Below, in pieces: positions 24,163 through 26,883 of a DNA stretch of 64,000 nt; the stretch's first letter is position 1, and every line of letters begins with the position of its first letter. Position numbers and translations under genes: made by a program. Origin of the DNA: Ectothiorhodospira sp. BSL-9 (GTDB lineage Bacteria; Pseudomonadota; Gammaproteobacteria; Ectothiorhodospirales; Ectothiorhodospiraceae); the NCBI RefSeq assembly GCF_001632845.1, contig NZ_CP011994.1:806001-870000 (forward strand). Reading direction: 5' to 3'. The notes beneath the pieces are model-generated. The model was given only the letters and a program-made list of their open reading frames with translations. It was not told where the DNA came from and did not search any database.

Positions 24163-24609
24163 TCAGGCTGGTGGAACGCGCAACTGGAAGGTGACCGGCC
24201 CATCGTTGATGAGCGAGACGACCATGTGGGCTCCGAATCGGCCCGTGGCGACATGCGGCCAGGCGTTACGGGCCTGGCTCACCAACTCGTTGAATAACCG
24301 CTCGCCTTCCTCGGGTGGGGCGGCGGGCGTGAAACTGGGACGCATGCCCTTGCGGGTGTCGGCGGCCAGGGTGAACTGGGGTACGAGCAGCAGGCCACCC
24401 TGGATATCGCGTACGGACAGGTTCATGCGCCCCTCGGCATCCTCGAACACACGGTAACCCAGCAGGCGCTCCAGGAGGCGTTCGGTCTGGGCGGGACCGT
24501 CGCCCCGCTCCACCCCCACCAGCACCAGCAGGCCGGCATCGATCGCGCCCACCGTATGCGCATCCACTTCCACGCTGGCGCGCGTCACCCTCTGCAGCAG
24601 GCCGATCAT
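24163..24609 (-). CDS. dtd: D-aminoacyl-tRNA deacylase
   Basis: 148 residues. Dtd removes D-amino acids wrongly charged on t[19 protein letters not shown] is the family start; the active-site motifs are [18 protein letters not shown] (SQFT-like, here PQFT) and NDGPVTFQL (the cross-subunit GPVT). The ATG at 24609 overlaps the pip stop by 4 bp; longer frames upstream lie inside pip. Confidence 0.95.
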
Positions 24610-25562
24610 GTCAGACGGTCCGCCAGGGCGTTGGTGGCGGCCACCAGTTCGCGGGTGATGCCTGGCTCGCTGGCGGAGTGACCGGCGTCGGGCACGATGT
24701 GCAGATCCGCCACCGGCCAGGCCTTGTGCAGGGCCCAGGCCTGATCCACGGGGCAGACCACATCGTAACGACCATGCACGATGGTGCCCGGGATATCGGC
24801 CAGACGATAGGAATCGCGGAGCAACTGGTCCGGCTCCAGAAAGCACCGGTGCTTGAAGTAATGGCATTCCACCCGGGCCAGGCTCAGGGCCACATAAGGG
24901 TCCTGGAAATGCGCCACCACGCCTGGATTGGTGGTCAGGGTCGCGGCCCGGCCCTCCCACTGAGACCAGGTCTTGGCTGCCGCCATGCGCGCCACCTCGT
25001 CGTCGCTGGTGAGTCGGCGGTAATAGGCCGCCACCATGTCAGTGCGCTCCGCCTCGGGGATGGGGGCCAGATAGTCTTCCCAGTAGTCCGGGAACAGGCG
25101 CCCGGCCCCATCCTGATAGAACCACTGGATATCCTGGGGCCGGCACAGGAAGATTCCCCGCAGGATCATGCCCAGCACCCGCTGCGGATGGCGCTGGGCA
25201 TAAGCCAGGGCCAGGGTGGAACCCCAGGAGCCACCGAAGACGACCCAGCGATCAATACCCAGGTGCTCGCGGATGCGCTCCATGTCGTCCACCAGATCCC
25301 AGGTGGTGTTGTTCGCCAGGCTCGCGTGAGGGGTGGAACGGCCACAGCCCCGCTGATCAAACAGCACGATCCGGTACCGGGCGGGATCGAAGAAACGCCG
25401 ATGCCACACATCACAGCCAGCGCCCGGTCCGCCATGGAGGAAGATCACCGGCAGCCCGGAGGGATTGCCGCACTCCTCCAGGTACAGGCGATGGGTGTTG
25501 TCCACGCTCAGGTGCTGGGAGCCATGGGGCTGGATGCTGGGGTAAAGAAGGTCGCTGGGCAT
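24606..25562 (-). CDS. pip: Proline iminopeptidase (alpha/beta hydrolase)
   Basis: 318 residues, matching bacterial proline iminopeptidase (S33), which releases N-terminal proline. The oxyanion motif [10 protein letters not shown], the nucleophile elbow [11 protein letters not shown] (Ser), [23 protein letters not shown] (Asp) and [10 protein letters not shown] (His) are all present. Coupled to dtd by a 4-bp overlap. Confidence 0.95.
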
Positions 25563-25749: not shown

Positions 25750-25767
25750 TGTAGGAAAATCCCTACA
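25750..25767. promoter_or_regulatory. GacA/UvrY-like palindrome upstream of the candidate sRNA
   Basis: TGTAGGAAAATCCCTACA is a perfect 6-6-6 inverted repeat. It differs from the GacA upstream activating sequence TGTAAG-N6-CTTACA by one base in each half. It lies about 90 bp before the proposed start of the sRNA at 25848. The rest of 25563-25749, between it and pip, shows no gene or recognisable element. Confidence 0.5.
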
Positions 25768-25847
25768 GAAAAAACCCGCAAAACGGCAAAAAAGGGCCTT
25801 TTCAGGCATTACAGACCCAACACTCCGTGTGGGATCATATTCCCCAT

Positions 25848-26005
25848 GGTGCAAGACGCGCCGGGCAAAGGACCCTGGATTGCCGGGATCAAGGATTGAA
25901 ACCAGCCAGGCGTGGAAAGAATCCACTTGGGAGGCAAGGACGCCGCTTCAATCACCTTATGCCAGGATGGCATGGCCCTCGTCAGGGATGGCGAGGGTTT
26001 TTTTT
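25848..26005 (+). ncRNA. Candidate CsrB/RsmZ-type small RNA
   Basis: No protein fits this interval between pip and ttcA. It contains nine GGA motifs in 119 nt (GGA at 25870, 25877, 25886, 25893, 25914, 25930, 25938, 25965 and 25986). Several lie in hairpin loops: TCA-AGGAT-TGA (25889-25899), GGC-AAGGAC-GCC (25933-25944), ATGCC-AGGAT-GGCAT (25959-25973) and the terminator loop AGGGAT (25984-25989). A loop GGA preceded by A is what CsrA/RsmA binds. The 3' end is an intrinsic terminator with eight T. A CATATT -10-like hexamer (25836-25841) sets the start near 25848, so the 5' end is approximate; no clear -35 box was found, consistent with an activated promoter. The family sequesters CsrA and is normally switched on by GacA/UvrY. 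Confidence 0.6.
25976..26005 (+). terminator. Intrinsic terminator of the candidate sRNA
   Basis: CCCTCGTC (25976-25983), loop AGGGAT, GGCGAGGG (25990-25997), then eight T (25998-26005). The stem has 8 pairs with one G-U. It ends 68 bp before ttcA. Confidence 0.85.
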
Positions 26006-26073: not shown

Positions 26074-26883
26074 ATGACCCAACCCAGACGCCCTTCCCGC
26101 TCCCTCATCCGCTGCACCGGTCGCGCCATCGGCGATTTTCGCATGATCCGCGAAGGGGATCGACTGCTCCTGGGCCTCTCGGGAGGCAAGGATTCACTCA
26201 CTCTGCTGCATCTGTTGCTGTATTTTCAGGCCCGGGCACCGGTGCGTTTTGAACTGGGCGCGGTCACCATCGACCCCCAGACCGGCCTGACCGACAAGCG
26301 AGCGCTGATTCCCTATCTGGATGACCTGAAGGTGCCCTATCACTACGTGAGCGAACCCATCCTGGAGCGGGCCGAAAAACATCTGGACAACCATTCTTAC
26401 TGCGCCTTCTGCTCACGCATGCGCCGTGGTCTGATCTACCGCACCGCCCGGGAGCACGGATACACTGCGATCGCGTTGGGCCAGCACCTGGATGACCTGG
26501 CCGAGAGTTTTCTCATGAGCGCCTTCAATGGGGGCCGCCTGAAGACCATGAAGGCTCATTACCGGATTGAAAGCGGTGACCTGCGGGTGATCCGCCCACT
26601 GGTATACGCACGGGAGCGTCAGATCCAGGATTTTGCCCGTTCTGCCGCACTGCCCATCCAGGAAGAGAACTGCCCCACCCGCTACGGCACCCCCACCCAA
26701 CGCCCGCGCATGAAGGCGTTGCTGGCCCGGGAGGAGGCCGATAACCCCCATCTCTTCAAGAGCCTGGTGCGCACCTTGATGCCACTGATGTCCGTGGGCC
26801 TGGATGACGTGCCCCAGGCGGATGAGACCGACGCGCCTGGCACCGCCAATCCAATGGAGTCGATCGTTTCATGGAAGCGCTGA
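26074..26883 (+). CDS. ttcA: TtcA-family PP-loop tRNA thiolation protein
   Basis: 269-residue PP-loop ATPase. Family: 2-thiocytidine formation at tRNA position 32, with an Fe-S cluster. The ATP loop LGLSGGKDSLTLL, the cluster cysteines in CAFCSRMRRGLIYRTA, ALGQHLDDLAESFLMSAFNGG and the later NCPTRYG cysteine correspond to TtcA features. It is shorter than the E. coli protein and reads GQHLDD rather than GHHRDD, so a TtcA-like paralogue is possible. The ATG at 26074 is chosen because family similarity begins at IGDFRMIREGDR; an upstream in-frame extension crosses the sRNA. Confidence 0.82.
   Translation: MTQPRRPSRSLIRCTGRAIGDFRMIREGDRLLLGLSGGKDSLTLLHLLLYFQARAPVRFELGAVTIDPQTGLTDKRALIPYLDDLKVPYHYVSEPILERAEKHLDNHSYCAFCSRMRRGLIYRTAREHGYTAIALGQHLDDLAESFLMSAFNGGRLKTMKAHYRIESGDLRVIRPLVYARERQIQDFARSAALPIQEENCPTRYGTPTQRPRMKALLAREEADNPHLFKSLVRTLMPLMSVGLDDVPQADETDAPGTANPMESIVSWKR

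Follow-up and report, generated by a model that had tools for sequence, protein, structure and literature searches.

The window analyzed here comprises 64,000 nt of the 3.55-Mb chromosome of the purple sulfur bacterium Ectothiorhodospira sp. BSL-9 (genome G000; contig NZ_CP011994.1, positions 806,001 to 870,000). Between the divergently oriented pip gene and ttcA it contains an intergenic region in which a small RNA gene, together with its putative control elements, could be predicted. The features of the locus are the following, in window coordinates:

24163..24609, minus strand: dtd (D-aminoacyl-tRNA deacylase), an ORF that overlaps the end of pip and adjoins the RNA in more distant genomes
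24606..25562, minus strand: pip (proline iminopeptidase), an ORF, the divergent upstream neighbour, also found beside the RNA in other genera and families
25750..25767, plus strand: GacA/UvrY-type inverted repeat TGTAGGAAAATCCCTACA, predicted activator site, 0 mismatches to the consensus
25836..25841, plus strand: predicted −10 element CATATT (context GGGATCATATTCC), from sequence inference
25848..26005, plus strand: predicted CsrB/RsmZ-like small RNA of ∼158 nt, from GGA hairpins, terminator, cross-species alignment and covariance model R1
25870..25988, plus strand: nine GGA, predicted CsrA-binding sites, from motif count and hairpin folding of loops
25945..25958, plus strand: conserved linker GCTTCAATCACCTT, with 14-nt complementarity to the csrA mRNA leader AAGGTGATTGAAGT and a core conserved in other families
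25962..25972, plus strand: GCC(AGGAU)GGC, the most conserved predicted CsrA-site hairpin, with compensatory changes in relatives
25974..26005, plus strand: Rho-independent terminator, a stem-loop (25974–25999) with an AGGGAU loop followed by eight T
26074..26883, plus strand: ttcA (tRNA 2-thiocytidine synthetase), an ORF, the downstream neighbour

The ttcA product, whose closest named homologue is that of Ectothiorhodospira haloalkaliphila (97% identical), served as the query for fetching the corresponding loci of relatives. Reading frames within 25848–26005 are not conserved across these relatives, in agreement with the initial annotation, which had found no coding gene there and had proposed an RNA that sequesters CsrA. 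Its terminator with an AGGGAU loop and eight T was recovered by pattern, and the terminator stem shows compensatory changes among relatives.

The nine GGA that the initial annotation had counted within 119 nt (25870, 25877, 25886, 25893, 25914, 25930, 25938, 25965 and 25986) were found again on recounting. Its expectation of about two is right for the window mean (∼2.2 per 119 nt; 2.9 per 157 nt on the plus strand), but not for dinucleotide shuffles of the stretch itself, which yield 5.5 per 157 nt. Stretches of 157 nt with at least nine GGA make up 0.18% of the plus strand and 0.39% of the minus strand of the window. The excess of plain GGA over shuffles of 25848–26005 is modest (9 versus 5.5, p ∼0.03), because the RNA stretch is itself G-rich. 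Better measures are the count of A(N)GGA (8 versus 2.4, p ∼0.002) and the number of GGA that could sit in the loop of a small hairpin (8 versus 2.9, p ∼0.001). The hairpins named at the outset, UCA(AGGAU)UGA, GGC(AAGGAC)GCC, AUGCC(AGGAU)GGCAU and the AGGGAU terminator, were all confirmed.

Membership of a described RNA family, for which a covariance check with the CsrB, CsrC and RsmY/RsmZ models of Rfam had been suggested, was not borne out, the window scoring below the gathering score in every family. An Rfam scan of the window at gathering and permissive thresholds returned chance matches only (CRISPR-DR9, NsiR1), and the CsrB, CsrC, RsmX, RsmY, RsmZ and RsmV models gave no match in eight further loci; RsmV reached a chance-level 15.3 bits in the relative G010 against a cut-off of 100.

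Approximately 80 bp upstream of the predicted RNA start lies a perfect 18-bp box, TGTAGG-N6-CCTACA. The consensus described for UvrY is TGTAAGN6CTTACA, and in Escherichia coli UvrY binds TGTGAGAGATCTCTTACA upstream of csrB (PMC4682653). The degenerate pattern TGTARG-N6-CYTACA occurs at only two sites in the 3.55-Mb genome, and the reversed-pattern control at none. The TCATA core of the putative −10 element is invariant in eight Ectothiorhodospira sequences at a constant spacing of 66–69 bp from the box, and the same 66–69 bp separate box and −10-like TCAT in every copy of the family where TCAT was recognised; it was not recognised in copies G015a, G012a and G012b. The earlier reading of the locus as a CsrA sponge is supported but was incomplete, since it overlooked both this box and the linker at 25945–25958. 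Among 47 genomes of the family, distributed over five genera (g1–g5), the box is present in nine of the ten g1 genomes, in G010 (g2), in three of the five g4 genomes and in G013 (g5), with G019 and G021 carrying a one-mismatch version; none was found in the g3 genomes.

The other perfect box of the host genome (G000:C1:793574-793591; L025:2075-2092, outside the window), TGTAGGAATATCCCTACA, is located between subtilase-like and lipoprotein-like ORFs. A second sponge at this site was ruled out by the lack of a GGA-rich RNA downstream, and the box is possibly a direct target of the UvrY homologue. E. haloalkaliphila G007 (L081–L084) and E. marina G009 (L085–L087) contain four to six boxes, several of them identical to that of the small RNA. 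Extra sponges were likewise discarded there, GGA-rich RNA being absent after the boxes, and the UvrY-like regulator of this clade may control a wider regulon.

Conservation extends well beyond the promoter. Eight Ectothiorhodospira sequences can be aligned over the entire gene, with promoter, stems and several GGA invariant, and box, −10 element, GGA body and terminator are also conserved in genera g2 and g4. Covariance model R1, built from the RNA alone with the box excluded, recognised eight full-length copies in the genus Ectothiorhodospira (158–178 bits) plus one degenerate copy, that of G004 (43 bits), and elsewhere in the family all five g4 genomes (38–45 bits) and G010 (24 bits). The g4 copies are classically CsrB-like, with hairpins such as GGGUC(CAGGA)GACCC, UCGGC(AGGAC)GCCGG and GUGGC(AGGAC)GUCAC. 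Genomes G012, G015 and G017 each harbour an additional, unlinked RNA copy with its own box. Retention of the GGA loops in syntenic relatives, on which the initial annotation had staked its proposal, held except in two shortened copies, G004 (L088) and G013 (L096), whose body is reduced to ∼83–96 nt and is GGA-poor while box, −10 element, linker and terminator are retained. In these two genomes the linker complementary to csrA persists although most GGA of the sponge body have gone, which suggests that it has a function of its own. A second R1 match in the host genome (E 0.35) was dropped as coding-like sequence devoid of GGA enrichment, and the weak matches in g3 are probably terminator look-alikes, since g3 lacks the box. 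In G017 (L089), G019 (L014) and G021 (L013) a convergent engB/yihA gene takes the place of ttcA, and the RNA still lies beside pip.

Outside the family, R1 was run on 370 gammaproteobacterial genomes; as the box is not part of the model, this survey is blind to it. GGA-rich matches occurred in five genomes (G157, G410, G176, G300 and G352), each with a box of 0–1 mismatch upstream. G410 (L146/L160) carries two tandem RNA copies behind a single perfect box, the second copy having two mismatches at its own box position and sharing the perfect box of the first. The remaining matches are mostly GGA-poor, with moderate GGA in G331, and their box positions have three or more mismatches. The GGA-poor ones are probably terminator look-alikes, as they reach at best three box mismatches. 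A pattern search combining linker, AGGA and terminator gave 20 matches against two for the control; four of the 20 (G000, G001, G410 and the new G084) have a perfect box and the other 16 at least three mismatches. Both surveys sampled the class Gammaproteobacteria. The arrangement pip–RNA–ttcA recurs in G157 and dtd–RNA–ttcA in G410, while dtd adjoins the RNA in G300 and G352 and pip in G084. The recurrence of these neighbours across genomes indicates that the RNA gene is old and syntenic.

The partners expected of a Csr circuit are encoded in the genome. The csrA gene, without which the initial annotation would have withdrawn its proposal, was found (90.9 bits) in its usual place between lysC and tRNA-Ser. 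The genome has one further CsrA-like gene, a divergent one (G000:C1:1317420-1317566, L002; 54 bits), located beside transposase-like ORFs. The UvrY/GacA homologue (G000:C1:3113944-3114657) shares 44% identity with E. coli UvrY across 212 aa and scores 207 bits with the NCBIfam equivalog NF007018, below the cut-off of 280, the next protein of the genome reaching 54. A BarA-like kinase of 914 aa shows HisKA-HATPase-REC-Hpt domains and aligns with BarA from end to end, scoring 428 bits with equivalog NF008318, below the cut-off of 890. This regulator (at least 53% identical) is present in all RNA-bearing genomes and also in G006, where box and RNA are both absent. The g3 genomes do not encode it (best match 39%); they possess CsrA and lack both box and RNA. 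Several of the ∼30 g3 genomes carry extra CsrA copies.

The linker separates the sponge body from the last two hairpins. Its core UCAAUCACC is preserved in nearly all members, the shortened copies included, and appears as CUUCAAUCACC, CUCAAUCACC or GUCAAUCACC in the members outside the family except G352. Complements of the linker were searched in the leaders of csrA and of the UvrY and BarA homologues, a choice of few leaders made after the linker had been seen. The csrA leader of the host contains AAGGUGAUUGAAGU, a 14-nt complement of linker GCUUCAAUCACCUU with one G-U pair; the part of the linker predicted to pair with csrA includes CAAUCACC. As a contiguous helix, the linker and its own leader reach −25.0 kcal/mol, a value equalled by none of 2118 leader-sized windows from the same genome (mean −13.6, sd 2.5). 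In a comparison of 41 csrA leaders, GGTGATTG was present in all 15 leaders of RNA-bearing genomes and absent from all 26 leaders of RNA-less ones (G006 and 25 g3 genomes), an absence that may represent only two or so independent losses, since most of the RNA-less genomes belong to the single genus g3. The motif is placed 19–24 nt upstream of the csrA start codon, just before the ribosome-binding site.

Changes on the two sides appear matched in several species. In G015 and G012, leader UUUGGUGAUUGGAGC(A) faces (U)GCUCCAAUCACCAAA of RNA copy b over 16 bp, and copy b of G015 reaches −31.3 with its own leader versus a mean of −15.5 with other leaders. Copy a of the same two genomes also forms 16 bp, G-U pairs included, and G001 forms 15 bp. 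The pair just past CACC is U-A, A-U or G-C depending on the species. Two-sided changes occur in nine of 18 linker–leader pairs against 6.3 in shuffles (3/500). Paired cells amount to 74.5%, borderline relative to shuffles (33/500), falling to 41% or less when the register is shifted by one. The remaining covariation measures for linker and leader were not clearly above shuffles. Species-matched pairing gave no advantage in G002 and G003, where foreign leaders pair equally well, and in G017a, G019 and G021 the helix contains a mismatch or bulge. In the predicted naked RNA, 27% of the linker is unpaired in the window and 27–96% across species. Loop-tolerant RNAduplex did not single out csrA in G000, with 19 of 300 shuffled leaders and 1436 of 6390 windows equally good, and was uninformative because GC-rich flanks dominate free-loop scores; contiguous helices were used in its place. 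The sequence AGGTGATTGA is found 17 times in the host genome, and the csrA leader itself bears GGA (UUGGAGAAAAGGAAAUG). A role of the linker as internal partner of GAUUGA (25894) is possible in G000 and was rejected, the partner being lost in relatives. The linker is absent from E. coli csrB and csrC, and the E. coli csrA leader contains no matching motif. The linkers of G157, G176, G300, G410, G084 and G010 are CTTCAATCACC, CTCAATCACC and GTCAATCACC; if the pairing holds, they predict GGTGATTGAAG, GGTGATTGAG and GGTGATTGAC 15–30 nt before csrA.

The computations established the elements of the locus and how they are conserved, the presence of partner genes, the complementarity to csrA and the co-distribution of RNA and leader motif. 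These findings point to an RNA that is very likely CsrB-like and that probably carries a predicted csrA-antisense arm. The reading we favor, with a probability of roughly 0.8, is that of a GacA-switched CsrA sponge RNA that would additionally pair with the csrA mRNA. A plain GacA-controlled sponge of the CsrB/RsmZ type, in which complementarity to csrA were a by-product (e.g. of an element recognised in both places by an RNase or by a DNA-binding protein), would draw equally on all the evidence for a sponge, and the partial pairing of the linker in the naked RNA and the imperfect leader fit of some copies speak in its favor. However, it accounts poorly for the species-matched compensatory changes, which in G015 and G012 span as many as 16 bp, and for the lack of the leader motif where the RNA is missing, including G006 of the same genus; moreover, a shared DNA site would need to function both in a promoter leader and, reversed, 100 nt inside a small RNA gene. 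We consider this explanation unlikely.

The position of the RNA on the same strand as ttcA, immediately 5′ of it and ended by a terminator, could suggest instead a cis-regulatory leader or attenuator of that gene. Such a role is very improbable, given the genomes in which engB replaces ttcA and the RNA stays by pip, as well as the second RNA copies that do not adjoin ttcA. A chance GGA cluster next to an unrelated terminator, an idea that the p value of only ∼0.03 for plain GGA against local shuffles and the presence of further GGA-rich stretches in the window might encourage, is contradicted by the conservation, the box, its fixed spacing and the recovery of box-bearing loci by the box-less R1, and deserves hardly any credence. 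Least credible of all is that the stretch encodes a short protein or represents a stray CRISPR-like repeat: open stretches do exist on either strand, and GGATTGAAAC resembles the end of a CRISPR repeat (16 bits, E 2.3), but frame conservation is absent among relatives and a repeat array was not found.

According to the favored model of a switched sponge with an antisense arm, in which transcription, the binding of GacA and CsrA, the RNA–RNA pairing in vivo and the sign of its effect are all predictions drawn from sequence, the BarA/GacS-like kinase would phosphorylate the UvrY/GacA-like regulator upon a signal, and the latter would bind the box at 25750–25767 and activate the promoter whose −10 element lies at the fixed distance of 66–69 bp. 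The ∼158-nt RNA would then offer seven to nine A(N)GGA, several of them in loops, so that several CsrA dimers might be drawn off their mRNAs. The linker would pair over 10–16 nt with the csrA 5′ leader, ending ∼19–24 nt before the start codon, beside the ribosome-binding site, and this pairing might lower csrA translation or stability, the sign of the effect being itself presumed. CsrA of E. coli represses its own translation (PMC7652899); if the same applies to this system, mere titration would relieve self-repression and thereby increase CsrA synthesis, a rebound that an antisense arm silencing the csrA mRNA would cancel.

The locus resembles E. coli CsrB/CsrC (PMC4682653) in its repeated A(N)GGA hairpins, terminator, upstream UvrY inverted repeat and the presence of csrA in the genome, but differs from them in size (158 nt versus 369 nt for CsrB and 246 nt for CsrC), in GGA number (9 versus 22 and 14), in the distance from box centre to start (∼90 bp to the predicted start versus ∼180 bp) and in its neighbourhood, which in E. 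coli is other than pip/dtd/ttcA. A kinship between the engB-side copies and E. coli csrC, which lies beside yihA, was judged a coincidence because the orientation differs. RsmX, RsmY, RsmZ and RsmV of Pseudomonas, likened here by their literature description, are comparable in size, GGA number and GacA-type upstream element, whereas the window has no match to their Rfam models. Dual function is known from E. coli McaS, which both base-pairs with mRNAs and titrates CsrA (cited in PMC7652899 and PMC10729762). McaS itself is portrayed as a base-pairing RNA with four GGA, while the RNA described here is CsrB-like and its predicted target is csrA itself. In Pseudoalteromonas fuliginea, sRNA0654 is a putative antisense RNA predicted against csrA mRNA, a cis-encoded candidate that is separate from the Csr sponge RNAs of that organism (PMC11882849). 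In the open-access literature we found no paper joining Ectothiorhodospira and CsrB, nor any report of a Csr sponge pairing with csrA mRNA.

Taken together, the data make it fairly likely that the locus represents a widespread gammaproteobacterial family of GacA-controlled sponge RNAs located by dtd, pip or ttcA and lying outside Rfam, whose antisense arm would provide a double lock on CsrA, at the level of both protein and mRNA. Csr sponge RNAs are regarded as a protein-titrating class distinct from base-pairing RNAs (PMC7652899). If the family does pair with csrA mRNA, the two classes would be united in a single molecule, which would directly answer the problem of how the circuit copes with refilling of the CsrA pool after titration. 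The locus also supplies a covariance-model seed and a synteny anchor for finding further members, and it provides a concrete RNA, box and regulator for the Gac/Csr circuit in purple sulfur bacteria as well as in other poorly studied families.
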